Part shown: in pieces, positions 6,866 through 46,334 of the stretch | Numbering within the stretch: the first letter of the stretch is position 1 | Layout of the letters: every line of letters begins with the position of its first letter | NCBI RefSeq assembly: GCF_020215665.1 | Contig: NZ_CP084061.1 | Coordinates: forward strand, 2,822,001-2,886,000 | Source: Blautia parvula | GTDB lineage: Bacteria > Bacillota > Clostridia > Lachnospirales > Lachnospiraceae | Reading direction: 5' to 3' | DNA: 64,000 nucleotides | Notes under the pieces: model-generated | Told to the model about the DNA's origin: nothing | Seen by the model: the letters and a program-made list of their open reading frames with translations, nothing else | Database searches by the model: none | Translations under genes and position numbers: made by a program

Positions 6866-7858
6866 ATGAACCGTTATCAACCGCCGTTTACCATTAATAA
6901 TACCATGCTGATATATGTCTCATCCATATCGGAAAAACTCGGCAGGATCAGTATGCTGCAGAAGATGGAATCCCGCCCCTATCTAAGGCGTAACAACAGA
7001 ATCAAGTCCATTCATTCTTCCCTGAAAATTGAGGCTAATTCCTTGTCACTTGGACAGGTCAGGGATGTGCTTGCCGGGCACATGGTTCTGGGTGAGCAAA
7101 AGGAAATTCAGGAAGTAAAAAACGCTTACGCTGCTTACGAAAAATTGCCTGAGATCAATCCATATAGTTTGAAAGACTTAAAAAAGCTGCATGGAGTCAT
7201 GACCCAATATACGGTAGATGAGTCCGGCGTATTCCGTAAAGGAGAAGAAGGTGTGTTTAATGGGGATAAATGTATTTTCATCGCACCTCCGGCAAGATTG
7301 GTACCGGGGCTTATGGAAGAATTGTTCGACTGGATGTCTCGAGAACAGGCATCCGTACACCCTCTTATCCTGTCCTCAGTCTTTCATTATGAATTTGTAT
7401 TCATTCACCCTTTTTCAGACGGAAACGGCAGGATGGCAAGGCTGTGGCATACGGCGATTCTTTCCAAATGGAAACCGATTTTTGAGTACATCCCGATTGA
7501 AAGTCAGATTGAAAAATTTCAGGATGGTTACTATCAGGCAATTGCCCAATGTCATTCAGAAGGGACTTCCAATATCTTCATTGAATTTATGCTCAAACAG
7601 ATTGATATGGTTCTTGATGATATCTCCAAACAGATATCGGATGATACAGAACAGATGACAGAATATGTAAAGAAGCTTTTGTCCGCAATGGAAATGGATA
7701 CTTCATATACAGCAACCTGCCTTATGAAGAAACTGGGATTAAAATCAAAGGAAACCTTTCGTAAAAATTACTTAAATCCGGCAATGGAACTTAATCTGGT
7801 CGAAATGACTGTACCGGAAAAACCAAGAAGCAGAAATCAAAGATATATTCGGAGATAA
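6866..7858 (+). CDS. Fic-domain AMP-transferase, class II (N-terminal inhibitory helix)
   Basis: 330 residues. The Fic core motif HPFSDGNGR lies at residues 181-189 with the catalytic His181 and the phosphate-binding Asn/Arg. Upstream, SSLKIEAN (51-58) matches the inhibitory (S/T)xxxE(G/N) helix with Glu56, so the enzyme should be self-inhibited. The C-terminal ~60 residues look like a winged-helix segment. Fic enzymes of this class attach AMP to hydroxyl side chains of proteins; the target is unknown. It is a lone gene with its own promoter and terminator, not next to an antitoxin gene. Base composition is slightly more AT-rich than the pur genes around it, compatible with past transfer. Confidence 0.9.
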   Translation: MNRYQPPFTINNTMLIYVSSISEKLGRISMLQKMESRPYLRRNNRIKSIHSSLKIEANSLSLGQVRDVLAGHMVLGEQKEIQEVKNAYAAYEKLPEINPYSLKDLKKLHGVMTQYTVDESGVFRKGEEGVFNGDKCIFIAPPARLVPGLMEELFDWMSREQASVHPLILSSVFHYEFVFIHPFSDGNGRMARLWHTAILSKWKPIFEYIPIESQIEKFQDGYYQAIAQCHSEGTSNIFIEFMLKQIDMVLDDISKQISDDTEQMTEYVKKLLSAMEMDTSYTATCLMKKLGLKSKETFRKNYLNPAMELNLVEMTVPEKPRSRNQRYIRR

Positions 7859-11568: not shown

Positions 11569-12348
11569 CTAAAATCCGGTACTTCTGTGATATTCTTTTG
11601 TGTATTTTTCCAAAAGAGCCCCCATGTCTTCCTGTTTTTCCCGGGAAGCATCCGGCTTTTTGGCTTCCATCTCTTTCTGGATCTCTCTGCAGGTATCCAG
11701 ATCCGCACCCATTCTGGCACATTCTCCCTGCCACTGGGCTTCCTCCATCAGCATCCTGCAGGCACACAGGTAATGCTTCAGGATCAGCTTGGTGTGAAGC
11801 TTTTCATATGCCTTTTCAAAGCATTCCTTAGCCTCCTCTATCTGGAAGAGGTGCAGATAGGCACAGCCCATATTGTGGAAGATCTCCCCCTCATACTGTC
11901 CGCCAAGACCTCCGGTATCCACACTTCTTAGGGCATCCTCGTAAATGCGGATAGCATTCACATACATCCGGTTGTCCACCAGATAGTCGCCCTTTTTCTT
12001 CTTGCGGGCCACTTCGGGAAGCTGTTCCAGGACCACAAGCTCCTCATTTAATTTTTTAAACTGCTCATGGGTCAGGTAATTGATCTCCCTGAAAACAGCC
12101 AGGATGAAATCCCCTGCCCCCCGCTCTTCCTCCAGAATCCGGTACAGCTTCTGGTAGAGCTTTAATAGTCCCAGCTCGTTTTTTATCCAGTCACAGAGAT
12201 GTTCATTGATGATCGTCTCGTCCAGCAGATAGATGTTGTGGTAGAGATAATAACATAATTCTTCTATACTGTAGATATTCGTGCTGATGTTTTCAATATA
12301 AAACGGAAGGGAAGCCCGTTTTATCTGACATAATATGTATCCGCTCAT
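11569..12348 (-). CDS. TPR-containing protein, third gene of the uncharacterised cluster
   Basis: 259 residues, cytoplasmic and mostly helical. Residues about 150-185 (FHNMGCAYLHLFQIEEAKECFEKAYE) form a clear tetratricopeptide motif, with a looser helical pair before it. The N-terminal ~90 residues are a distinct helical region. It starts 10 bases after the stop of the actin-like gene with a TAGGAGGAAA site, so the three genes at 11569-17165 form one operon. TPR proteins act as protein-protein adaptors. No enzymatic motif is visible. Confidence 0.85.
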   Translation of the reverse strand: MSGYILCQIKRASLPFYIENISTNIYSIEELCYYLYHNIYLLDETIINEHLCDWIKNELGLLKLYQKLYRILEEERGAGDFILAVFREINYLTHEQFKKLNEELVVLEQLPEVARKKKKGDYLVDNRMYVNAIRIYEDALRSVDTGGLGGQYEGEIFHNMGCAYLHLFQIEEAKECFEKAYEKLHTKLILKHYLCACRMLMEEAQWQGECARMGADLDTCREIQKEMEAKKPDASREKQEDMGALLEKYTKEYHRSTGF

Positions 12349-12358
12349 CTATTTCCTC

Positions 12359-13606
12359 CTACCACGCTGCTCTCTCGGTCCACATCAGGCCGCTTGAGGG
12401 GAACATCTCCCCGAATCCCAGATCCTGTACCAGAATAATGCAGGTATCCGCTGATTCATACATGATGTGCACACGAAGCCTCGTGGTCCTGTCAGGCCTT
12501 TTCGGAAGCCCCGGCAGCTTCATGCAGTAATGTCTTACTTCCCCGCCGTCCATGGGCTTCACCATGAATTCCAGGTTCTCCCTGCCGTCCAGAAGCAGTT
12601 CAAATTCGTGCTCTGTCTCATACCAGTTTCTTCCGGCCTCAGCAACGGTATAGTTCTTCTTTTTCCCCTGGATGAGCATTTCCATGCTCACATGGTTCTG
12701 GACCAGGGCATTTCCCACATACAGATATGTGCCCAGAAGCTTCTCCTCGGTCCGCTCCCTTGCCGCATAGCAGGCCCCTTTCACATACATGTTGTTTCCA
12801 TAGTATACATGGCGCTGGTTCTTGCACAGAAGCGGTACACTCCTTACAGCCCAGTCCTTGGAAAATCCGTCCCCTACCAGGTAAATCCCCGCGTATGTGT
12901 CATTTCCGCAGGAATCTGCAATCAACTGGTAAAAGTCTACGTCCTTCTGGTCCGGGTCTTCCGGCAGGGTTATGGTCTTGCCGTGTTCCACTGTGACCAG
13001 CATGGGCTTTTTCTGGCTGTCTACCACCATGCGGGAAAAAGATACTTTTCCTTTATCAAATGTGAAGAGTCCTGTCATACGGTTCCAGTTATCCAGTCTC
13101 TTGCTCATCACATAATAGTAAAAGCTCTCCTCGTAATCCTGCAGAAGCACCTGCCCGGAAGTAAATTTCAGGCGGGTGCACACTCTCTGCAGCTTGCGCA
13201 CCAGCACTCGGTTCAGGTCCGGAACCGTGATCATCAGGGTCTTGATCTGTCTCGCCGGCTCTGCCACGCCAAGCACGGACAGACAGCCTTTTAAGTAGAT
13301 CTCCAGCAGCTCCTCCGGCCTGTACCAGCCGCCGTCAATCTCCACCGGTTCCCCCTGGCCCCAGATCTCCAGCAGGTTATCCACCGGGATTTCCCCCTCG
13401 TGCATGGAGAAATAATCCGCCTCCATACCGAAGTGCCACACTTCTGTCCTGGGCCTTTTGGAAAGTCTGGTGGAAAATGTATACTGATTGCTTCCTGTCT
13501 TCACGGAAAGAGAGACCGGTTCTTTTTCTTTTCTGTCATAATAGCAGATCTGGGAAAACTCCTTCCCCAGTTCCAGGCCCGCGATAATATTTCTTGTCTC
13601 ATTCAT
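12359..13606 (-). CDS. Actin/Hsp70-like fold protein (resembles DUF5716)
   Basis: 415 residues. The N-terminus IIAGLELGKEFSQICYYD (about 8-24) resembles the phosphate-1 loop of the actin/Hsp70 ATPase fold. Around residues 255-295, GIYLVGDGFSKDW followed by VKGACYAA resembles the adenosine motif and the closing helix of that fold. Hallmark acidic catalytic residues are less clear, so nucleotide binding is a hypothesis. I recall Lachnospiraceae proteins of this size and context labelled DUF5716, but could not check. It lies between a 1180-residue protein and a TPR protein with tight spacing (16 and 10 bases). Cellular role unknown. Confidence 0.75.
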   Translation of the reverse strand: MNETRNIIAGLELGKEFSQICYYDRKEKEPVSLSVKTGSNQYTFSTRLSKRPRTEVWHFGMEADYFSMHEGEIPVDNLLEIWGQGEPVEIDGGWYRPEELLEIYLKGCLSVLGVAEPARQIKTLMITVPDLNRVLVRKLQRVCTRLKFTSGQVLLQDYEESFYYYVMSKRLDNWNRMTGLFTFDKGKVSFSRMVVDSQKKPMLVTVEHGKTITLPEDPDQKDVDFYQLIADSCGNDTYAGIYLVGDGFSKDWAVRSVPLLCKNQRHVYYGNNMYVKGACYAARERTEEKLLGTYLYVGNALVQNHVSMEMLIQGKKKNYTVAEAGRNWYETEHEFELLLDGRENLEFMVKPMDGGEVRHYCMKLPGLPKRPDRTTRLRVHIMYESADTCIILVQDLGFGEMFPSSGLMWTERAAW

Positions 13607-13622
13607 GCCCTTGTCTGCCTCC

Positions 13623-16600
13623 TTATTCTATCAGTTCAAAGAGAGAGGAAACCCAGGCTTCCTGCTGTCTGTACTGTCCCAGCAGTTCCATAAGCTCCTG
13701 TTCTCTTCCCTGCTGTTTCGCCGCCAGCATACGGTTGATCATCTGGTATTTTGTAGTCCCCTCCAGCTTTGCCTCGGGAACGGTGAGCCTGCTCTTTTCC
13801 GTCTGCTGTATCTCCCCGCGGCCTGCCACAGTGAAATAATACTCCAGTACCTCCCCGTAAAACAGGATAAATTCTTTATTGTAAATACCCTGATACAGAT
13901 TTTTCAGCGGTTCGCTTTTGAACTCTCCCGGCTCCCTGTCCGGCTGCAGCATGCGGTAGTGAATGGTCACATCCGCCCTGGGACTGGCCTGGCACTGGGC
14001 AAACACCTTGTCCTCAAGCTGCATGCTCTGCAGAAGGGTTCTGGGAAGCTCCTGGAAAAAGGCAAATTTAAGCCCTGTCCTGGCACATACGGATAAGATG
14101 GCGCGGGCCGTCTCCAGCCTGTTTTCCTCCCATTTCTTTTCCTGTGCATAATATTTGAGAAGGGCCAGGTCACAGATAATATCATACTCCCATCCTTTTT
14201 TCCTCACGTGCTCCAGCGAGCGGAAAATAAACGTCTCCGCCTCTTTTCCCCCGATAAAATACTGAAAGGATGCAAAGGTCAGGTAAGCCAGTATCACCTG
14301 TTCCTTACCGCTTAATTTTACATAGTCCTTCAGAACCGCCGCATCCCCCGGATGGTAGATTCTTGTGAACATGCTGTAGGTCAGGATGTCCTCCTCCAGC
14401 TCGTAGGCCTCTATGGAAAATCCCATGGAGCGCTCCCACACCCGGATCATCTCATCCACAGGTCCCTCAAAATACTTGGTCAGATATTCGAGAACCACCT
14501 CATCATAGGTGTTCTCCTTAAATATATGGTGAGCCAGAAGAAGAAGCTCCTCCTCATATTCAAACTCCAGATTGAGGATCATGCGGCTGCACAGCCTTAA
14601 CAGGTCTCTTGGGTCAATCTCCTCATAGCCGTACTCACACAGCAGGTCATAGGCCCCCACATACATGCCCTGTTTGATCAAAATGGTGATGAGAAGGCTC
14701 TTGTTGACTTTTGCAAAACTGTGAAAATCCATCTCCCGAAGGTAATCCTTCAGATTGTCATTATCCATATGCTCCTCATAGTAGAGAAGCAGGCGCCTGC
14801 GCACCCTCTGCCTGTAATCCTCAGAAAAGCAGTCCTCCCCGGACACATCCTGGATACAGGATATATTTTCTCTTGTTATGGGGTTCTCATGGTTCAGTTC
14901 CCCGCAGGTATAGAGGAGAAGCCCCGGTGTCCTGATTCCCTCCGCCAGAAGCTGCCTCGCCAGCTCTTTTCTCTCCAAAAGCGGCTGGATATTGTAATCT
15001 ATGGTCTGGATATAGCGCCTCTGCCTGTCATCCTCAAAGACAATCCTGGCGTCCGGTGTGTAAATGGACACATAGGCCACTTTATCCGTACAGGTATACG
15101 TCTGTTCTTCACAAAATGCCGCATGGCGGACGATCACCCGCCGTATCTTGGGATCATCACAGTAAAGCCTGTGGGTGAAAAGCACCTTCGCAAGGGCTCT
15201 CTTAACTGCAGGATCATGGGAGCTTAAGCAGAACTCCTGGTACACCACAGCAAAGTCCTCATTCATCCTGCCTTCCTTGAGCTTCTCACAGGCGAACTGT
15301 TCCATACTGCTTTTATAGCTTAAATATGTAGTTTTATCCACTTCCTTGTTGCGTATCACATTGCTGTACACAAATGCCTTTTTCGCGTCGCTCAGCGTAT
15401 TGTTATAACTGAAATACATGCGTATCATGCGTGGCAGCATTTTCTGGTAATTGCGGCTCATGGTCTCAATATAATACTCGTACAGCCTTGTGATCTTCAG
15501 CTCTTTCTCCACTGCCAGCTCATACCACCGGAAATATTCCTTCTTCCTGGGGTCGCCCTTCATGATCAGCATACAGATGGAGCGCACCACGGCTGTGGAG
15601 GGATATTTTTCGTAGATGTATTCCAGTATCTCATATACCTTCTGGCTGAAATCCTTCATCTGCCCCGCCAGGTCTGTGGCGCGGAAGGCCATCTCCTCTG
15701 TCATAATATCATGCCGCATGGCAAAGAGCAGCACCTGAATGGTGAAGGGACTGATCCTCCTGAGCAGCGCTCCGTCCGCTGCTGCTATCCGGCATGCTTC
15801 CAGATACAGAAACGGGCTTCTGCAGCCGGTTCTGTACTGCTCCTCCAGCAGATAGATCTTCTTTGACTGGGTACGCACCTGCTCGGAATCTGTTTTCAGA
15901 AGAATATATAACAGAAGGAAGCTGTCCTCCCTGCGCTGGTAAAGCTGATGGAGGCGCACCACCATCTTCTCCCGGATCTCCTGACCGCATCCCAGCACAT
16001 CCTCCAGGTAGAGATATACGCCCTCCAGCTCCTCCTCCGCCTGAATCCGGCTGTTGTCTTTTAACTTATCCAGGGCGTCCTTTGCTCTGCTGTCCTCCCC
16101 GCATTCATGGTAAAACCAGACCTCAAACAACTGGTGCTCCGTGGTGTAATGCCCGGTCTCCCGCAGTTCTGTGAGAAGTCCCAGTGTCCTGCTCTCCCAC
16201 TGGCTCTTGGACAGCTTCTCCAGACTGTAGTCCAGGTAATCTCTCAAAAGCTCCAGTTTCTTTTTCTTCTCGTATGCCGCAACATTTACCTGGATCTTAC
16301 CGCTTTTGGAGGCCATCACTTCATAAACAAGGGTCTGGTAAACGGTTTTGATACAGATTCTTCCGTAATTTCTGCCTTTTCCCAGATTCTCCCTGCGGAT
16401 AATATACTGCAGCTCATATACACTGCCGATAAAATCCTCGTCCCGGATGGATTTTTTCTCCACTTCCAGGAAATCGCCCTCCACGGTCACACTTGCTTTC
16501 AGATAGCCCCAGCCGCTTCTGCGCACCCGGACGGTATCCATAAGGGAACTCTGCACCTCATAGATCTCCAGATTCTCCTGTTCCAGATGCAGCTTCACAG

Positions 16601-17165
16601 GGTCCTTTTTTCCCGTGCCGATGAGAAATTCCTCCAGATGCTGCCAGGTCACAGGATTTTTCGCCATGGCATAATAATAGGGCAGTACCTCCTGCTCTTC
16701 TTTCAGAAGCTCCGGAAAGGAATCATCCAGAAACAGATGGTACGCCTCCTTAAAATCTTTTTTCGCCAGCTCCGCAAAGGCATCCAAATCCCTGATGGAG
16801 CCTGCGGATGTCTTGATCCGGCACGGTTCCACCTGTATGGCAAAGGGAACCCTGTACTCTCCGATGCTGGTGCTGAGAACCAGCTCTCCCTCAAAGGAAT
16901 CTCCGGGGTTCAGGCCCTTTACATCTGCCCCGTAGGGAATCTCTATCTTCTCCCCGGTAAAACGCTCTTTTCCCAGAAGAAAACGGCGATGGGAGGAATA
17001 GGCGATCCCTTTTATCCGGCTCCCATTCTCTGCTGCTATGATCAGCTCTCCCCTGATATTTTCCCCGGCCTTTGTGCTCTCCCTGATATCTTCCCTGGAC
17101 AGCAAAAGACCCGGAACCTCGTATTCAAATCTTCCATTTATCAGTTGTTCTATTCTTCTCTTCAA
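13623..17165 (-). CDS. Very large helical-repeat protein (resembles DUF5717)
   Basis: 1180 residues from a TTG start at 17165 with a GGGG site 9 bases upstream. The first ~115 residues are beta-rich, with repeated glycine/charged turns (GENIRGELIIA, GDSFEGELVLS). Most of the rest, roughly 250-1150, is amphipathic helix rich in Leu, Tyr, Glu and Arg, like an alpha-solenoid. No signal peptide or transmembrane helix is seen, so it is probably cytosolic. I recall Lachnospiraceae proteins of this length named DUF5717; this was not verified. As first gene of a three-gene operon with an actin-like and a TPR protein, it could be the scaffold of a complex. Confidence 0.8.
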   Translation of the reverse strand: MKRRIEQLINGRFEYEVPGLLLSREDIRESTKAGENIRGELIIAAENGSRIKGIAYSSHRRFLLGKERFTGEKIEIPYGADVKGLNPGDSFEGELVLSTSIGEYRVPFAIQVEPCRIKTSAGSIRDLDAFAELAKKDFKEAYHLFLDDSFPELLKEEQEVLPYYYAMAKNPVTWQHLEEFLIGTGKKDPVKLHLEQENLEIYEVQSSLMDTVRVRRSGWGYLKASVTVEGDFLEVEKKSIRDEDFIGSVYELQYIIRRENLGKGRNYGRICIKTVYQTLVYEVMASKSGKIQVNVAAYEKKKKLELLRDYLDYSLEKLSKSQWESRTLGLLTELRETGHYTTEHQLFEVWFYHECGEDSRAKDALDKLKDNSRIQAEEELEGVYLYLEDVLGCGQEIREKMVVRLHQLYQRREDSFLLLYILLKTDSEQVRTQSKKIYLLEEQYRTGCRSPFLYLEACRIAAADGALLRRISPFTIQVLLFAMRHDIMTEEMAFRATDLAGQMKDFSQKVYEILEYIYEKYPSTAVVRSICMLIMKGDPRKKEYFRWYELAVEKELKITRLYEYYIETMSRNYQKMLPRMIRMYFSYNNTLSDAKKAFVYSNVIRNKEVDKTTYLSYKSSMEQFACEKLKEGRMNEDFAVVYQEFCLSSHDPAVKRALAKVLFTHRLYCDDPKIRRVIVRHAAFCEEQTYTCTDKVAYVSIYTPDARIVFEDDRQRRYIQTIDYNIQPLLERKELARQLLAEGIRTPGLLLYTCGELNHENPITRENISCIQDVSGEDCFSEDYRQRVRRRLLLYYEEHMDNDNLKDYLREMDFHSFAKVNKSLLITILIKQGMYVGAYDLLCEYGYEEIDPRDLLRLCSRMILNLEFEYEEELLLLAHHIFKENTYDEVVLEYLTKYFEGPVDEMIRVWERSMGFSIEAYELEEDILTYSMFTRIYHPGDAAVLKDYVKLSGKEQVILAYLTFASFQYFIGGKEAETFIFRSLEHVRKKGWEYDIICDLALLKYYAQEKKWEENRLETARAILSVCARTGLKFAFFQELPRTLLQSMQLEDKVFAQCQASPRADVTIHYRMLQPDREPGEFKSEPLKNLYQGIYNKEFILFYGEVLEYYFTVAGRGEIQQTEKSRLTVPEAKLEGTTKYQMINRMLAAKQQGREQELMELLGQYRQQEAWVSSLFELIE

Positions 17166-17233
17166 TGTATTCTACCCCGTTATCTCTAAACCATATGGCC
17201 CGGAGAATCTCCGACTGATTATTATTTATCTTG

Positions 17234-17262
17234 TTGAACTATTTTCTATATCCCGCTATAAT
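17234..17262 (+). promoter_or_regulatory. Sigma-A promoter of the aminotransferase gene
   Basis: TTGAAC (17234-17239) and TATAAT (17257-17262) are 17 bases apart. The predicted start near 17269 leaves a leader of about 130 bases before the ATG. Confidence 0.75.
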
Positions 17263-17281
17263 ATGTGTTAGTATATATTAT

Positions 17282-17351
17282 TTCAGGACAGAGTCCTGAA
17301 TAGTACAATTATACACTACAAATGCAAGGGGTGCAACCTCTGCCGCCCCTT
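17282..17351 (+). promoter_or_regulatory. Palindrome and hairpin in the aminotransferase leader
   Basis: TTCAGGAC-AGA-GTCCTGAA (17282-17300) is a perfect 8-bp dyad just after the predicted transcription start. A second stem, AAGGGG / CCCCTT (17326-17331 / 17346-17351), lies further down the leader. They could be an operator and an RNA hairpin; I do not recognise a known riboswitch class. Confidence 0.4.
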
Positions 17352-17397
17352 CAACAACTCTATAAATAGGAAAATCAAAGGAAACGGAGGCATTTTC

Positions 17398-18495
17398 ATG
17401 CTGAAACATAAAGACCATTTTCACGGCAGCGACCTAGAAAAAATCGAAGAAATCTACGGAATCAAAAAAGAAGACATCACCAGTTTTTCCGCAAATGTAA
17501 ACCCCCTCGGCATCTCTCCCCTCCTGCGGGAGACACTGGCAAGCCACGTGGACGCCATCACCACCTACCCGGACAGAGACTACACAAAGCTGCGCAAAAG
17601 TATCTGTGCATACACCGGCGCCCAGTTCGAGAACATCATTGTGGGCAACGGCTCCACTGAGCTTATTTCCCTGTTCATACAGACCACACACCCGGAAAAA
17701 GCGCTGATCCTGGGCCCCACCTATTCAGAATATGAGCGCGAGATTGCCCTGGAAGGAGGCCACACGCTCTATTACCCCCTGAAGGAGGAAAATAACTTTC
17801 AGATGGATGTAAACGACCTGTGTGCTCAGATGAAAGACGGCCTGGACCTGCTGGTACTCTGCAACCCCAACAATCCCACCGCTTCTGCCATCTCCAGAAA
17901 AGACATGCGCAAAATTCTGGACGCTGCCCTGCAGTTCGGCATTGCTGTCATGGTGGACGAGACCTATGCAGAGTTTGCCCCTGATGACAGGAAGATTTCT
18001 TCCATTCCCCTTACCAACAATTACAACAACCTGATCGTCCTGCGCGGTATCTCCAAATTTTTTGCCGCTCCCGGTCTCAGGCTGGGCTATGCAGTCACGG
18101 GAAACCCTGATCTTTTGAAATATATCAACACCAAAAAGAACCCCTGGACGATCAACAGCCTGGCAGAGATCGCGGGCTGTATCATGTTCTCCGACAAAGA
18201 ATACATTGAAAAGACCCGCACCCTCATCACTACGGAACGGGAACGTCTTCTCAAAATACTTTCTGCCTGGGATACTGTGAAGGTGTATCCTTCCTGTACG
18301 AACTTTATCCTTATGAAAATATTGAAGGAGGATGTGACATCGGATATGCTGTTTGACTGCTGCATCCGGAAGGGACTAATGATACGTGACTGCTCTACGT
18401 TTCCGTTTTTGGATTCTTCTTATGTGAGATTTTGTGTTATGAGTCCTGAGAAAAATGATGCGCTGATAGAGGCGTTTGGAGAATTGCTGGGGTAA
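17398..18495 (+). CDS. PLP-dependent aminotransferase, CobD/HisC-like
   Basis: 365 residues, fold-type I class I/II. The N-terminus HGSDLEKIEEIYG...FSANVNPLGI matches threonine-phosphate decarboxylase (CobD) and histidinol-phosphate aminotransferase (HisC) relatives. The PLP lysine is in GISKFFAAPGLRLGY, with CNPNNPTAS and MVDETYAEF supplying cofactor contacts. CobD makes aminopropanol phosphate for cobalamin; HisC makes histidinol phosphate. No cobalamin or histidine gene is nearby, so the substrate is left open. It has its own promoter, a GGAGG site and a downstream hairpin. Confidence 0.85.
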   Translation: MLKHKDHFHGSDLEKIEEIYGIKKEDITSFSANVNPLGISPLLRETLASHVDAITTYPDRDYTKLRKSICAYTGAQFENIIVGNGSTELISLFIQTTHPEKALILGPTYSEYEREIALEGGHTLYYPLKEENNFQMDVNDLCAQMKDGLDLLVLCNPNNPTASAISRKDMRKILDAALQFGIAVMVDETYAEFAPDDRKISSIPLTNNYNNLIVLRGISKFFAAPGLRLGYAVTGNPDLLKYINTKKNPWTINSLAEIAGCIMFSDKEYIEKTRTLITTERERLLKILSAWDTVKVYPSCTNFILMKILKEDVTSDMLFDCCIRKGLMIRDCSTFPFLDSSYVRFCVMSPEKNDALIEAFGELLG

Positions 18496-18637: not shown

Positions 18638-19465
18638 TTATTTGAGTTCAGCCTCCAGCTCTTTTATGGTTTTCAGAAGCACCGGATGCCTTTTCCATGG
18701 CGCAATCTGCGCCAGCGGCTTCAGCACAAAATCCCGCAGATGCATTTCCACATGAGGCACGATCAGTTCCTCTGTATCTATGATCTCATCGTCAAATAAC
18801 AGCAGATCCAGATCCAGCGTTCTGGGCCCCCAGTGTACCAGGCGTTCTCTTTTGGCGGCCTGCTCGATCTCGTGCATGCGATCCAGAAGCTCGTGAGGAT
18901 TGTACAGAGTCCGCATACTGAGGCAGGCGTTCAGGAAGTCATCCTGTTCCACACCGCCGTAGGGCGCTGTCACCAGGTAATCTGAGACTTTTAAGACCTT
19001 GCAGCCTGTCGTCTTGTCAAGCTCCTCCACTGCCATGTCCAGGTATGCCTTCTTGTCTCCCAGATTGGAGCCGAGAGCGATGTAAGCGGTATGCCATCCC
19101 CTTGTTATCTTTACGGATACGGTTTTCAGCGGGAGGCCTACCGGCGCCCAGGGTTTCTTGATCTCCAGGGTGACTGCTTCCAGATGGGCAATGCTGCAAA
19201 GCATTTCCTCTGCCAGATGCTCCGCAGCGGCCTCCAGAAGCTTGAAGGTGTGCTTCTGCATATAAGAAGTTATGAAATGACTCACAGCCCCGTAGTCTAT
19301 GGACGCTGCCAGCTCATCGGTCCTGCCGGCGTGTACGGTATCTGTGTACAGTGTGGCTGATACCATGAACTTCTGACCCAGTTTGTTTTCCTCCGGAAAT
19401 ACGCCGTGGTTTGCGAATATTTCCAGATCTTCTATGTTTATCTTATCGTATTTATCCAGATTCAT
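18638..19465 (-). CDS. folK: Bifunctional dihydroneopterin aldolase / HPPK (FolB-FolK fusion)
   Basis: 275 residues. Residues 1-118 are dihydroneopterin aldolase (FolB), opening with INIEDLEIFANHGVFPEE. Residues ~124-275 are 6-hydroxymethyl-dihydropterin pyrophosphokinase (FolK), with ALGSNLGDK and the HWGPRTLDLDLLLFDD signature. Together they convert dihydroneopterin to hydroxymethyl-dihydropterin diphosphate, the FolP substrate. It is the last gene of the fol operon, 6 bases after folP. FolB-FolK fusions are common in Clostridia. Confidence 0.95.
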   Translation of the reverse strand: MNLDKYDKINIEDLEIFANHGVFPEENKLGQKFMVSATLYTDTVHAGRTDELAASIDYGAVSHFITSYMQKHTFKLLEAAAEHLAEEMLCSIAHLEAVTLEIKKPWAPVGLPLKTVSVKITRGWHTAYIALGSNLGDKKAYLDMAVEELDKTTGCKVLKVSDYLVTAPYGGVEQDDFLNACLSMRTLYNPHELLDRMHEIEQAAKRERLVHWGPRTLDLDLLLFDDEIIDTEELIVPHVEMHLRDFVLKPLAQIAPWKRHPVLLKTIKELEAELK

Positions 19466-19471
19466 ATGCTA

Positions 19472-20287
19472 TTATCCCTTTCTCTCGCAAAGAATGGCCT
19501 GTGTCATGCGGATGGCACGAAGGTTTTCTTTTACGTCGTGGACTCTCACAAATGCCGCTCCCTTTTCTACACCCATGACTGTGGTTACAAGTGTTCCCTC
19601 CACTCTCTGGTCAGCGGGCAAATCCAGGGTATTGCCGATCACGGATTTCCTGGAAGTTGCAAGAAGAACAGGGTATCCGATCTCCTTCAGCATTTCCAGG
19701 TGGTTTATGGCAGTCAGGTTTTGTTCATAGGTCTTTCCGAAGCCCACACCCGGATCCAGGATAATTTTGTCGTCTGCAACGCCTGCTTCTTTTGCGATGG
19801 CGGCACATTCTCTTAAATCCTCACACATTTCCTGCATGAAATCTGTGTACTCTGCCTTGTCTCTGTTATGCATAAGACAGCAGGGTACCTGATAGCGGGC
19901 GGTGAGTTCTGCTGTTTTTTTGTCGTATTTGAAGCCCCAGATATCATTTACCATGTCAGCACCTGCCTTCAGGGCGGCTTCCACTACCTGGCTTTTGTAG
20001 CTGTCTATGGATACGGGGATATCAAAGTTCTGTTTCAGCATTTCGATGACAGGCACTACCCGGTCGATTTCCTCCTGTACGGTGATCTGCTGATGTCCCG
20101 GGCGGGTGGATTCTCCTCCCACGTCAATGATGGCTGCCCCTTCGGCGATCATTTGGGCTGCATGCTGTTTTGCACGCTCCACGTCGTTCCATTTTCCGCC
20201 GTCTGAAAAGGAGTCCGGGGTTACATTTAAAATAGCCATTATGTAACAGTCATGTTCTGTGTCAAAAATTCTGTTTCCGATTTTCAT
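19472..20287 (-). CDS. folP: Dihydropteroate synthase
   Basis: 271 residues, the normal length. Motifs: ILNVTPDSFSDGG near the N-terminus, IDVGGESTRPG, VNDIWGFK, and LDPGVGFGKT. It condenses hydroxymethyl-dihydropterin diphosphate with p-aminobenzoate and is the sulfonamide target. It lies between the HD-domain gene and the folB-folK fusion gene. Confidence 0.97.
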   Translation of the reverse strand: MKIGNRIFDTEHDCYIMAILNVTPDSFSDGGKWNDVERAKQHAAQMIAEGAAIIDVGGESTRPGHQQITVQEEIDRVVPVIEMLKQNFDIPVSIDSYKSQVVEAALKAGADMVNDIWGFKYDKKTAELTARYQVPCCLMHNRDKAEYTDFMQEMCEDLRECAAIAKEAGVADDKIILDPGVGFGKTYEQNLTAINHLEMLKEIGYPVLLATSRKSVIGNTLDLPADQRVEGTLVTTVMGVEKGAAFVRVHDVKENLRAIRMTQAILCERKG

Positions 20288-20344
20288 TTCCTGTTGTCTC
20301 CTTTTTCCTGTATTTTTGTCTGCCGCTGCGGTCTGTATGCCGGT

Positions 20345-20848
20345 TCATACGGTCAGATACATATTTTTCTTCTCTGCACTCCAGCTGCACTGCGCCTGGG
20401 CAGGGCAGGAAAAGCAGCAGCGGGAACCTTTATCAGCCCGGTAAAGGATGCCTGCCAGGTTCCTTTTCCCTTTGGCCGACGTGTCACGGTGGCCGCCGAT
20501 GGCTTCCAGGATCTCCTCTGACTCCGCATCTGTAAAGCCGCAGTCCTTCAGTATGGGAGCGGCAAGTTTTACTCCGCCCTCGTGGTGGGGAATGCCCTCT
20601 GTGTACTGCAGGCCCCTGCCGATGTCGTGCAGAAGAGCTGCCGCATAGATCATTTCTTTGGAAATTCCCAGATTCCGCTCCAGGTTCTCAATATAAGCCA
20701 GTCTGGCGGTATCCAGCAGATGCTGTGCATTGTGGCCGCAGAAGATGCGCTCCTGCTCCAGCTTTTCTATATTATGTAAACTTTCCCGGTAAAGCGGATG
20801 GTTCCGGATCCGGTTTACCCTTGTCATATCCTGCCTGTTGTCTTCCAC
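20345..20848 (-). CDS. HD-domain phosphohydrolase in the folate operon
   Basis: 167 residues from a GTG start at 20848 with a GAGGAC site. An HD domain with H...HD...H spacing is visible: CGHNAQHLLDTARLAY, then ALLHDIGRGLQY, then HHEGG. The C-terminus carries a cysteine group (CCFSCPAQAQC) that could bind metal. HD proteins hydrolyse phosphate esters or diphosphates. Placement between folE and folP makes it a candidate for removing phosphates from dihydroneopterin triphosphate, a step with no other gene here. That role is inference. Confidence 0.85.
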   Translation of the reverse strand: MEDNRQDMTRVNRIRNHPLYRESLHNIEKLEQERIFCGHNAQHLLDTARLAYIENLERNLGISKEMIYAAALLHDIGRGLQYTEGIPHHEGGVKLAAPILKDCGFTDAESEEILEAIGGHRDTSAKGKRNLAGILYRADKGSRCCFSCPAQAQCSWSAEKKNMYLTV

Positions 20849-20946
20849 TTTTCTTGTCCTCTTTTATCAGCCGCCGCGGCAATTTTGTCAGGCAAATTCC
20901 TATACATGGTCGGTACGGGAAATGCGCAGGCCCGGCGGAACCCTTG

Positions 20947-21501
20947 TCAGCACTCCAGCATTCTGTAGAAAGAATTCTGCAGGCTCTCATTGTCGTCAAA
21001 GATACCTCTGGTCACTACAGATACGGTTCTGGTTCCCGGTTTTTTAATGCCGCGCATGGTCATGCACATATGCTCTGCCTGGACCAGCACCATCACGCCC
21101 TTTGGCTTCAGTTCCTCCATAAAGGCATCCGCGATCTGGGCGGTCAGTCTCTCCTGAAGCTGGAACCGTTTTGCGAACACCTCCACAGTCCTGGCAATCT
21201 TGCTCAGGCCCACCACTTCCCCGTTGGGAATGTAGGCGATAGCCGCGTTTCCGTAGAAAGGGAGCATGTGATGCTCGCAGAAGGAATAGAAATGAATATC
21301 CTTTTCCATCACCATATCATTATTATCCACATGAAAACGTTTCTTCAGATGTACTGCCGCATCGTCGGTATAACCGGCAGCCAGCTCCTCATACATACGG
21401 GCAATCCTGTCCGGTGTCTCCAAAAGCCCCTCTCTGTTTATATCCTCCCCGATTCCTTCCAGAATCAGGCGTACTCCCTCTTTTATCTTATCCTGGTTCA
21501 T
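20947..21501 (-). CDS. folE: GTP cyclohydrolase I
   Basis: 184 residues. Zinc and substrate motifs are clear: [11 protein letters not shown] (Cys and His ligands) and a later [10 protein letters not shown] with the second ligand Cys. [16 protein letters not shown] is the typical core helix. It converts GTP to 7,8-dihydroneopterin triphosphate, the entry to folate. It begins 3 bases after the folC stop. Confidence 0.97.
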
Positions 21502-21504
21502 GTA

Positions 21505-22797
21505 TTACTCTCCCTCCATGGCCTGTACTTCCCGGTCCAGCTCCCCTAAAAAGGACAGAGAGCCAAACGCTACGATCACGTCATCCTTCTGTGCATTTTC
21601 CATACTCTTCCTCACAGCTTCCCGTATGCTTCCCGCTGCCTCTACGCTGGGATTCACCTTTGCCACAGCGTCTCTTAACTGTTCTGCCGGAAGTGCTCTT
21701 TGGTTGTCCGGTGTCTGTATGGTGATGATGTGTTTTGCCAGAGGCGCTGTCATGCTGATCACGCTCTGATAATCTTTGTCCGCAAACACACCGAAAATAA
21801 AATGCAGGTCTTTGCCCTGAAAATATGTCTCAAGTGAATCCTTCAGCACCTTAGCCGCCGCCGGATTATGGGCACCGTCTATGACTACCACAGGATTTTT
21901 GTGGATAACAGAAAAACGCCCTCTCCAGAAAGCCTCCTTCATTCCTTTTCTCACCTGTTCCTCTGTCAGGGAATATCCCAGATTTCGCAGGGCCTCCACA
22001 GCCTCCAGTGCCAGTGCCGCGTTGGTGACCTGGTAAGTGCCTGCCAGGGTGATCTCCACGTCCTTCCAGTCCTTGTAAGAAAAAGTCTGCCTGTCATACC
22101 CGTAGTGCACATCCTGAAAAGCATCCGGGTCCACCACTGAAAGCCTGCACTCCTTCTCACGGCAGACGCGCCTGATCACCGCTGCCGCCTGGGGGTCCTG
22201 TTCCGCGCTTACCACCCATGTGCGGGGTTTGATGATACCTGCTTTATTCTCCGCGATCTCCTGAAGGGTACCGCCCAGAAACTCCATGTGGTCCATGCCT
22301 ATGGAAGATATCATTTCCATCACTGTCGTCTTCACAACATTGGTGGCGTCTAATGTTCCTCCGAGTCCTGTCTCTAATACCACGATGTCGCATTTCTTCT
22401 CTTTAAAGTACAAAAAGGACAGGGCGGTCTCCACTTCAAATACTGTGGGACTCCCCTTCTTCTCCGCCTCCATGGCGTCCACTGCCTCTTTGACAACCGT
22501 CACCAGAGCAGCCAGGGATTCCCTGTCTATCATTTCCCCGTCCACCTGAATCCGTTCCCGGTAGGCATATAGGGTTGGAGATATGTACCGGCCTGTCCGC
22601 AAGCCCGCACCGGAAAGGATTGTGGACATATATGAGAGTGCTGACCCCTTTCCATTGGTACCGGAAATATGGATAAACTTCAAATCATCCTGGGGATTTC
22701 CAAGCCGATCAAGCAGCTCTCTCATGTTATCCAGACCAAGTACACTTCCGTATTTGGACACTTCGTCCAAATATACTCTTGCTTCTTTGTAATTCAT
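21505..22797 (-). CDS. folC: Folylpolyglutamate / dihydrofolate synthase
   Basis: 430 residues of the Mur ligase family. The ATP loop ISGTNGKGSALSY is at about 43-55. ETGLGGTLDATNVV and VIDGAHNPAAAK are the FolC-specific blocks. It adds glutamate to dihydropteroate and/or folates. First gene of the fol operon, with a good promoter upstream. Confidence 0.96.
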   Translation of the reverse strand: MNYKEARVYLDEVSKYGSVLGLDNMRELLDRLGNPQDDLKFIHISGTNGKGSALSYMSTILSGAGLRTGRYISPTLYAYRERIQVDGEMIDRESLAALVTVVKEAVDAMEAEKKGSPTVFEVETALSFLYFKEKKCDIVVLETGLGGTLDATNVVKTTVMEMISSIGMDHMEFLGGTLQEIAENKAGIIKPRTWVVSAEQDPQAAAVIRRVCREKECRLSVVDPDAFQDVHYGYDRQTFSYKDWKDVEITLAGTYQVTNAALALEAVEALRNLGYSLTEEQVRKGMKEAFWRGRFSVIHKNPVVVIDGAHNPAAAKVLKDSLETYFQGKDLHFIFGVFADKDYQSVISMTAPLAKHIITIQTPDNQRALPAEQLRDAVAKVNPSVEAAGSIREAVRKSMENAQKDDVIVAFGSLSFLGELDREVQAMEGE

Positions 22798-28928: not shown

Positions 28929-30071
28929 TTACCGGTTAATCTCTAAAAGCTTATTCTTCAGTTCACTTTCCAGACGGTTCATCTCCACCTCAGCTTCCAT
29001 ACGCTTCTGATGGCCCTCTTTCTGGATGTTCATGATCTCATCAAAAGTGCTGATCAGAGACTCGTTTGTCTTCTTCAGCGTTTCAATATCCACAATGCCC
29101 CGCTCGGATTCCTTCGCGGCCTCGATGGTGGCCATCTTAAGTGTCTCCGCATTTTTCTGGAGAAGAGCGTTTGTCATATCGGTCACCTGTCTCTGTGCCC
29201 TTGCCGCCTCAGAGGAATGGGCAACGCCCAGTGCCAGAACCATCTGGCTCTTCCAAAGAGGAATGGTATTGACCAAAGTGGACTGGATCTTCTCTGCCAT
29301 CAGGGTGTCATTGCCCTGTACCAGACGGATCTGGGGTGCTGTCTGGATGGAGATCATGCGGGTCAGTTCCAGGTCATGGATCTTCTTCTCAAATCTCTGG
29401 CACATGGAATCCAGGTCCTTGGCTGCCTGGGCATCCTCCGGAAGACCGCTTCTCTGGGCTTTCTCCATAAGCTGGGGAAGGTCTGTGCTGCGCACTTCCT
29501 GGAGTTTCTTTTTTCCGGCAAGAATGTACATGGAAAGCTCTTTAAAATAATTCAGGTTCAGGGCATACATCTTGTCCATGGTGGCAGCGTCCTTCATAAG
29601 CTGGATCTGGTGCTGCTCCAGGGTCTGTACGATCTTCGCAATATTTGTCTCCGCCTTGGCATATTTTGTCTTCATAGCTTCTATTTTATTGGAGCCGCGT
29701 TTGAACAGGCCGCGCAGTCCCTTTTCCTCCTCGGCTGCATCGAAGCTTTTGAGCTGTGTCACCACATCGCCCAGAAGATCTCCCACTTCACCCAGGTCCT
29801 TTGTCTTTACCTTTTCCAGAGCCTCCTCGGAAAAATCCGCCATCTTTTTCTGGGTTCCTGCCCCGTACTGCAGAATGGCTGCGGAATTGCGGATATCAAT
29901 CTGTTTTGAAAAATCATCCACCATTTTCCGCTCCGCATCGGAGAGCACACTCTCGTCAAGCTGCGGTTCCACCGGCTCTTCCTTTTTTATTTCCACAACC
30001 GGCGCCGCCTCCTGGGGCGCGTCAAATGTCAATGTGGGTGTTACCGTGAAATCTTTGAATTCGTCACTCAT
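28929..30071 (-). CDS. TelA/KlaA-family toxic anion resistance protein
   Basis: 380 residues, all helical, with the TelA core visible in DLPQLMEKAQRSGLP...KDLDSMCQRFEKKIHDLELTRM and the QIRLVQGNDTLMAEKIQSTLVNTIPLWKSQM block. No membrane segment. The family name comes from plasmid tellurite resistance; in Firmicutes it commonly pairs with XpaC and is linked to envelope stress. It follows xpaC by 43 bases in one operon. Confidence 0.9.
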   Translation of the reverse strand: MSDEFKDFTVTPTLTFDAPQEAAPVVEIKKEEPVEPQLDESVLSDAERKMVDDFSKQIDIRNSAAILQYGAGTQKKMADFSEEALEKVKTKDLGEVGDLLGDVVTQLKSFDAAEEEKGLRGLFKRGSNKIEAMKTKYAKAETNIAKIVQTLEQHQIQLMKDAATMDKMYALNLNYFKELSMYILAGKKKLQEVRSTDLPQLMEKAQRSGLPEDAQAAKDLDSMCQRFEKKIHDLELTRMISIQTAPQIRLVQGNDTLMAEKIQSTLVNTIPLWKSQMVLALGVAHSSEAARAQRQVTDMTNALLQKNAETLKMATIEAAKESERGIVDIETLKKTNESLISTFDEIMNIQKEGHQKRMEAEVEMNRLESELKNKLLEINR

Positions 30072-46261: not shown

Positions 46262-46334
46262 GCGCGAGTGGCTCAGTTGGTGGAGCGCGACCTTGCCAAG
46301 GTCGAGGCCGCGGGTTCGAGTCCCGTCTCGCGCT
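46262..46334 (+). tRNA. tRNA-Gly (anticodon GCC)
   Basis: A 73-base cloverleaf. Acceptor GCGCGAG pairs with CTCGCGC. The D arm contains GGCTCAGTTGGT. The anticodon stem CGACC / GGTCG holds the loop TTGCCAA, giving anticodon GCC. The T arm contains GGTTCGAGTCC. The discriminator is T and CCA is not encoded. Confidence 0.97.

Follow-up and report, generated by a model that had tools for sequence, protein, structure and literature searches.

A lidless Hsp70 relative with a predicted scaffold in Blautia, probably the reduced form of a larger multi-Hsp70 chaperone system

Background

What do three tightly linked genes of no assigned function, one of them coding for a relative of actin and Hsp70, do in a bacterium of a gut family? 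The genes, here called A, B and C, lie on the minus strand of a 64,000-nucleotide stretch of Blautia parvula DNA (contig NZ_CP084061.1, positions 2,822,001 to 2,886,000), hereafter the window, whose source genome is one contig of 6.25 Mb. Their open reading frames (ORFs) were confirmed at 17165-13623, 13606-12359 and 12348-11569, with spacings of 16 and 10 bases exactly as given in an initial annotation of this DNA, and they encode proteins of 1180 (from a TTG start), 415 and 259 amino acids. In Pfam, A (13623..17165, minus strand) matches DUF5717_N (PF18984, E 3e-265) and DUF5717 (PF18983, E 2e-102), and B (12359..13606, minus strand) matches DUF5716_C (PF18980, E 2e-101), all above the curated cut-offs; C (11569..12348, minus strand), which has a conserved N-terminal region, matches the tetratricopeptide repeat (TPR) families TPR_2 and TPR_8 with scores barely above cut-off. 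The initial annotation could offer only DUF-type labels and no function, and this still describes the state of the record: in the open-licence literature, judged mostly from titles and the openings of abstracts and exclusive of closed-access papers and bioRxiv, we found no description of DUF5716, DUF5717 or this type of operon, and the one paper found that names DUF5716, once, has an unrelated subject by its title.

We propose, with a probability of roughly 0.6, that the trio arose by reduction of a dedicated chaperone system with a scaffold and several Hsp70s, and that it holds a client-binding Hsp70 that no longer works with ATP. The analysis covered 61 relatives, 14 control genomes, two class samples (243 and 393 genomes) and an order sample of 196 genomes, 35 of them from the window's own family (taken to be the Lachnospiraceae from the nearest named relatives, Blautia and other Lachnospiraceae) and 161 from elsewhere in the order. 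The individually named loci comprise the 80 best of 568 that were confirmed; they were found through B and lean to Blautia-like genomes. The alignments comprise 71 of 75 B ORFs (A4, 400-450 residues) and 57 of 69 A ORFs (A5, 1150-1300 residues).

Protein B has an Hsp70 fold and no lid

The predicted structure of B (AlphaFold, the window protein with 71 sequences from the named loci; pLDDT 92.2, pTM 0.88) assumes an Hsp70 fold. Residues 1-300 (12707..13606, minus strand) take the form of the Hsp70 nucleotide-binding domain (NBD), in which, by model and alignments, the catalytic residues are lost and subdomain IIB is deleted near residue 215. Residues 304-415 (12362..12697, minus strand) form an eight-stranded sandwich that resembles the beta part of the substrate-binding domain (SBD-beta) in the model, in a profile alignment and in Foldseek. 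The SBD-alpha lid is missing, the chain stopping after SBD-beta. An actin-fold core in 12359-13606 had been set beforehand as a test of the initial annotation, and both the model and Foldseek place an Hsp70 fold there. The 50 Foldseek matches listed of 1366 in the PDB (E<=10) are all Hsp70-type by title and length, with E-values from 1.7e-17 to 3.9e-13, and include Hsp110 and the entries 7x3k and 6sr6 of the ribosome-associated complex (RAC), which contains Ssz1.

These matches bear on the cytoskeletal option of the initial annotation, under which the trio would be an actin-like filament system. The actin-like fold of the NBD speaks for such a system, but the 50 listed of the 1366 matches contain no filament-forming actin and extend over lengths corresponding to NBD plus SBD-beta, and B has no ATPase site; we regard a filament as barely credible.

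An eight-gene Hsp70 operon in other families of the order

The sequence connection between B and the Hsp70s runs through a larger gene set found outside the own family, with the order a1-a2-H1-GrpE fusion-B1-B2-Hsp70-VWA-TPR. Here A is usually represented by two genes, a1 (~390 residues) and a2 (~900 residues), although it is also a single gene in G047, G309 and G364. H1 has ~559 residues and Hsp70-VWA ~690; the GrpE fusion has ~560-645 residues with the GrpE domain at its C-terminus (279 residues in G039), and the TPR protein is homologous to C. The Pfam scan of one such operon, L031, gave HSP70 for H1 (6e-78), GrpE for the GrpE fusion (7e-11), DUF5716_C (2e-33) plus HSP70 (2e-14) for B1, HSP70 (2e-63) plus DUF5716_C (1e-12) for B2, and HSP70 (8e-92) plus VWA (1e-10) for Hsp70-VWA. 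Thus B1 and B2, each matching both HSP70 and DUF5716_C, tie B to the Hsp70s by sequence. The gene order was read in G042, G054, G058, G059, G309, G364 and G039; in G039 the VWA and TPR genes are two ORFs each, and in G309 the stretch stops within the TPR gene. In G040 the genes are spread over three contigs, as a1-a2-H1 at a contig end, GrpE-B1, and B2-VWA-TPR, the last two amid unrelated genes. Since the genes are dispersed in G040, linkage alone does not explain their co-occurrence there.

A profile that includes B1 relatives aligns to DnaK across NBD and SBD-beta, up to profile position 406, with an E-value of 2.4e-12. In a tree of 68 rows, for which 24 of 86 B rows were used, B forms one branch (support 95) beside the B1 of G039 (100), inside a joint B1 and B group (100) that is sister to B2; the tree was made by a quick method with SH-aLRT support only and has several long branches. 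Close to the C-terminus of B, residues 395-406 (12389..12424, minus strand) align as D-x-G-F-G-E-x-F-P-x-x-G, and the pattern D.G[FL]G occurs in the last 60 residues of 86/86 B and 11/11 B1 rows, of three of the nine B2 rows, and of none of the 14 H1 or 8 Hsp70-VWA rows. Together, the alignments, the tree and the predicted structure show B to be an Hsp70 homologue with NBD and SBD-beta but no lid, and the orthologue of B1.

Several observations weigh against this assignment or against a working peptide site. The TM-scores of B to Hsp70s are modest, 0.43-0.60 by query, and the DnaK match of 2.4e-12 needs three B1-type sequences, the own-family profile on its own reaching only E 0.055. With the window B by itself, Pfam returned no Hsp70 at E<=10, and phmmer against the PDB sequences returned mostly antibodies and no Hsp70. 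In favour of a peptide site, hydrophobic residues stand at the equivalents of F426, A429, V436 and I438 of the DnaK peptide pocket in 85-86 of 86 B, but these may be just core positions of the sandwich; the column equivalent to M404 is gapped in 86/86 B, and the hydrophobic allosteric linker is not conserved.

The ATPase site and subdomain IIB are lost

We scored D8, T11, T12, K70, E171, D194, G197 and T199, which we take, in numbering and roles, to be the site residues of DnaK. The census of the larger sets was restricted to proteins within length limits, and its 14 H1 rows stand for 11 distinct genes. K70 is kept in 14/14 H1, 9/9 B2 and 8/8 Hsp70-VWA rows, as is T199, and K70, E171, D194 and T199 occur together in every row of these three groups, as against 0/11 B1 and 0/86 B. 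Taken singly, K70 is absent from all B1 and B rows, and T199 is kept in 0/11 B1 and 9/86 B. In B, E171 and T11 are likewise at 0/86 and D194 is at 19/86, and the window protein keeps none of the eight residues. Hence, as the alignments show, three Hsp70s of the larger set (H1, B2 and Hsp70-VWA) have complete sites and the fourth, B1, is degenerate. The region of subdomain IIB measures 82 residues in DnaK and 75-94 in the other sets; in B only 2-18 residues remain (median 4). B1 still has IIB although its site residues are gone; by this comparison the degeneration began in B1. On the alignments B is not an ATP switch, because the residues for ATP hydrolysis are lost and IIB is deleted. The initial annotation had seen actin/Hsp70-like nucleotide-site motifs and an ATP-switch component in B: the fold stands, the motifs do not, and the switch has to be given up for an orthologue of the degenerate member of the set.

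Exchange factors, including GrpE, are reported to act by rotation of IIB (PMC10825016), so that the loss of IIB and the loss of the GrpE fusion described below fit together.

Were B an active ATP-driven switch with an altered site, its actin/Hsp70 fold would be accounted for, as would the retention of the Asp8 equivalent by 70 of the 86 B and a lysine that lies no more than three columns from the K70 column in 12/86 B (and 4/11 B1). We do not think, on these alignments, that the retained aspartate and the displaced lysine rescue the site, and the counts for K70, E171, T11, D194 and T199, the missing IIB and the failure to find the GrpE fusion in the own family make this explanation very improbable. 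A second explanation has the trio as a sensor or regulator in place of a client-binding complex, with B binding a nucleotide or metabolite that it does not hydrolyze; it accords with two adenosine-region glycines kept in 86/86 B and with Ssz1, which is reported to bind ATP but to be unable to hydrolyze it (PMC7083937). The second glycine of the adenosine motif, on the other hand, is Glu in 34/86 and Asp in 24/86 B, and IIB is gone; a sensor thus appears unlikely, if less so than a switch.

Reduction in the own family

Outside the own family, 58 of the 161 genomes of the order sample have A, and 57 of these 58 have both H1 and a strong match to the GrpE fusion. Within it, H1 at E<=1e-60 was found in 0/35 genomes and a strong GrpE-fusion match likewise in 0/35. 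DUF5716_C gives one matched stretch per own-family genome, versus two or three in most others, suggesting that B2 was lost too. Hsp70-VWA was found in 0/12 own-family genomes tested vs 5/5 others (in two pieces in G039), the own-family searches leaving only matches that lack VWA. The window's genome has two further Hsp70-type frames, of 629 and 570 residues. From these gene contents, the own family probably lost three active Hsp70s and the GrpE fusion and kept the trio, which would make the latter a reduced form of the larger set. G051, with a1-a2-B1 alone (L042:4817-9916) and neither H1 nor GrpE fusion, is an independent reduction of the large operon.

Some counts do not fall in line with such a history. 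In ten own-family genomes the GrpE-fusion model found weak matches that do not extend beyond its positions 512-617 and that we read as ordinary GrpE; in G233 the weak match adjoins a DnaK-type frame. A PF18984 match is missing from G325, which has H1 and the GrpE fusion, and from G432, which has PF18980; A occurs without a PF18980 match in G319, G337 and G384, as well as in G041, where the contig stops inside the operon. One draft genome of the window's own genus (G014, 91% complete) has neither A nor B. No DnaJ match, hence no J-domain, was seen among the eight proteins of L031, the one operon scanned, and the tripeptide HPD occurs in the operon proteins of L031-L033 only inside B2.

Co-occurrence, distribution and selection

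The initial annotation took separation of the three genes in other genomes as a sign against it, and they prove to stay together. A and B are both present in 35/35 own-family genomes of the order sample; across the whole sample, A occurs in 93 and B in 92 of 196 genomes. Of the best 80 of the 568 loci, 78 have A and 79 have C, contig ends accounting for the rest, and the order A-B-C is intact wherever the contig reaches, beyond chance. Of the 61 relatives, 47 have DUF5716_C and 48 DUF5717_N, with both in 36 of 37 own-family genomes; neither family was found in the 14 control genomes. The 243-genome class sample has PF18984 above cut-off in 10 genomes, all of the own family, plus one further match below cut-off. 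In that of 393 genomes H1 at E<=1e-70 gave one match, 39% identical, and no orthologue, even within the order. These figures are no proof of true confinement: families of the order that have the system seem to be thinly represented in the class samples, so confinement to the order is a result of the sample only.

In close pairs the dN/dS ratios of A, B and C are 0.025-0.16, where the ratio was computable and the proteins differ. For several pairs dS is high or could not be computed; nevertheless, these ratios show the trio to be under purifying selection.

A sporulation link, hinted at in the initial annotation, is rejected by a SpoIVA census: SpoIVA is above cut-off in 14/35 own-family genomes, with one weak match in addition, vs A and B in 35/35. 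Among the 161 other genomes those with A divide 47/11 with and without SpoIVA and those without A 87/16 (p 0.66, no association). A mobile element was likewise rejected. B had no plasmid match, and the 38 matches of H1 to phage records are all below 60% identity; the sole annotated one among five listed is a DnaK. Anti-phage defence was rejected as the trio matches no PADLOC model; proteins of L031 give partial PADLOC matches (B2 3.9e-11, Hsp70-VWA 2e-7, TPR protein 4.4e-6).

Proposed function

Beyond the fold and the tight co-occurrence, we judge the chaperone or assembly reading of the initial annotation, with its two scaffold-like partners, to be right. For the reduced chaperone system proposed here we infer a complex of all three proteins. 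A would be the scaffold, holding B and C through its beta-sandwich modules and solenoid, and C would be a TPR adaptor. B could act as a static, ATP-independent module whose beta-domain binds clients or peptide, comparable to Ssz1, and clients might pass from it to the housekeeping DnaK/GrpE or another partner, the ATP-driven steps being left to the housekeeping DnaK or not needed. The ancestral machine would have had this core hand clients on to its three active Hsp70s, with the GrpE encoded in the operon recharging them.

The more ambitious version of this proposal is tentative. It holds that the order contains an undescribed chaperone assembly line in which an ATP-dead Hsp70 on an ASH-like/solenoid scaffold captures clients and feeds three ATP-using Hsp70s (one with VWA) recharged by the GrpE fusion. 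The capture core would then have become self-sufficient twice, in the own family and in G051, and would be a bacterial equivalent of Ssz1, dealing with clients without the use of ATP.

The trio could instead lack chaperone activity and serve as a scaffold, structural or for membrane assembly, whose anchor would be a coiled-coil protein with two likely membrane helices (L043:9584-10753 and relatives; helices judged by eye on an alignment). By ORF listing, 17 of the best 80 of 568 loci have a gene for this protein after C; it also stands beside the trio in L153, and was found in 5/5 own-family genomes tested outside two genera and in 5/5 genomes of other families. Yet in the window's genus (0/5) and one other (0/2) it was not found while the trio persists, its gene is unlinked in G059, G310 and G316, and the partners in the large operon are chaperones. 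A membrane scaffold therefore seems improbable, and we retain the reduced chaperone system as the preferred reading.

Comparison with known systems

The window proteins are members of the Pfam families DUF5717_N, DUF5717 and DUF5716_C, and these families extend to the eight-gene Hsp70 operon. A review names three prokaryotic Hsp70 types, DnaK, HscA and HscC (PMC8215388). Like these, B has the NBD fold and SBD-beta, with sequence continuity through B1 and B2; unlike them, it lacks the lid, the catalytic residues, IIB and the linker, and the operons elsewhere have four more Hsp70-type proteins each. Ssz1 of the yeast RAC is reported to use a rudimentary SBD to bind nascent chains and to be unable to hydrolyze ATP (PMC7083937). 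It shares with B the character of a lidless, non-canonical Hsp70 held by a partner (for B, presumably), and RAC entries are among the fold matches of B. It differs in that B is without IIB, no J-protein was seen, and the proposed partner is a beta-sandwich/solenoid protein. Ssz1 would thus be, by analogy and not orthology, the nearest functional precedent for B; the comparison does not include a ribosome link.

The nearest genomic precedent, described by Kaur et al. 2020 (PMC7159879), is the GTPase-based HSP70-GrpE-FNIII/TPR theme: there the neighbourhoods of GAP1-N2 GTPases carry HSP70, GrpE and FNIII-TPR/DnaJ proteins, also in Firmicutes. The eight-gene set resembles them in uniting HSP70s, GrpE and a beta-sandwich/TPR protein. 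It departs from them in having four Hsp70-type proteins, the Hsp70-VWA and GrpE fusions and a core locus, and in the lack of a GTPase family match among the eight proteins of L031, the one operon scanned. The CnuD proteins of the CoCoNuT systems (PMC11090510) are likewise Hsp70 homologues whose ATPase motifs have degenerated and which occur next to helical repeats, but they belong to McrBC-type restriction systems, whereas the trio has no PADLOC match.

In the large form, one operon thus holds four Hsp70-type proteins beyond the three named types, with their own GrpE-type partner and scaffold. The large gut family that kept only the degenerate Hsp70 and the scaffold is a natural test of which component such a machine cannot do without, and the system makes a role of Hsp70 without ATP testable in bacteria. 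Two DUF families, present in 35/35 own-family genomes of the order sample, also gain a concrete hypothesis.

Architecture of the putative scaffold

The initial annotation's description of A as a giant helical-repeat protein with a beta-rich N-terminus is borne out by a model of its 1180 residues (pLDDT 88.5, pTM 0.64), which predicts two N-terminal beta-sandwiches, a long alpha-solenoid with an inserted beta-domain and a C-terminal beta-domain; at this pTM the overall arrangement of the parts is left open. The first beta-sandwich, residues 20-125 (16791..17108), is by its model strands and fold matches probably ASH/SPD-2-like, and the second occupies residues 190-285 (16311..16598). The predicted first half of the solenoid, with weak matches to TPR superhelices, covers residues 295-661 (15183..16283), and its second half residues 733-1046 (14028..14969), with the inserted beta-domain at residues 664-728 (14982..15176) between them; the C-terminal beta-domain is predicted at residues 1053-1128 (13782..14009; all on the minus strand). 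Fold matches of A include chains of the ciliary central apparatus, the SPD-2 domain of CEP192 (9fh8, E 9.6e-5) and the TPR-superhelix proteins Ctr9, Ski3 and Naa15, all weak, with E-values of 1e-6 to 1e-3, low TM-scores and no aligned ranges reported. The ciliary and SPD-2 matches presumably belong to the first beta-sandwich and the Ctr9, Ski3 and Naa15 matches to the solenoid, and all would fit a scaffold built from ASH-like and solenoid modules.

Gene neighbourhoods and other features of the window

Of the best 80 of 568 loci, 10 have an htpG gene upstream of A, as does L050. In L133, L137, L140, L143, L149, L151, L153 and L154 a perfect controlling inverted repeat of chaperone expression (CIRCE) precedes htpG on the strand of the trio, with 201 bases separating the end of htpG from A in L153. 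In L089 (12069-20940), 25 bases past C, a separate array begins beside the trio, with four Hsp70-type genes (502, 527, 519 and 525 residues) and two unknown genes (442 and 342 residues). These chaperone neighbours are suggestive; weighing against them, such proximity may reflect single inherited events, and the htpG of L145 is a fragment at the locus edge. A different Hsp70 array, with three Hsp70-type genes and an unknown gene of 476 residues, occurs outside the order in G204 (L156:825-13304), where several short proteins that precede the Hsp70 genes are judged by eye to be TerD-like.

Heat-shock control of the window's operon was rejected, as no CIRCE was found in the window with up to 4 mismatches allowed; the intergenic region between A and the divergent aminotransferase gene (17166..17397, no strand assigned) has only promoter-like matches. 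This class I/II aminotransferase gene (17398-18495) has a counterpart within 1.5 kb upstream of A in 26/96 loci, some genes being counted twice, a frequency of little meaning, and was rejected as a conserved neighbour.

Elsewhere the window encodes a Fic/DOC family protein (6866-7858), a folate-type cluster (18638-22797) of a FolB-HPPK fusion, an HD-domain protein, GTP cyclohydrolase I and a Mur-ligase-type protein, and a TelA-family toxic anion resistance protein (28929-30071) beside GcpE and a PolC-type polymerase gene. A tRNA gene at 46262-46334 is its sole Rfam match at gathering score.

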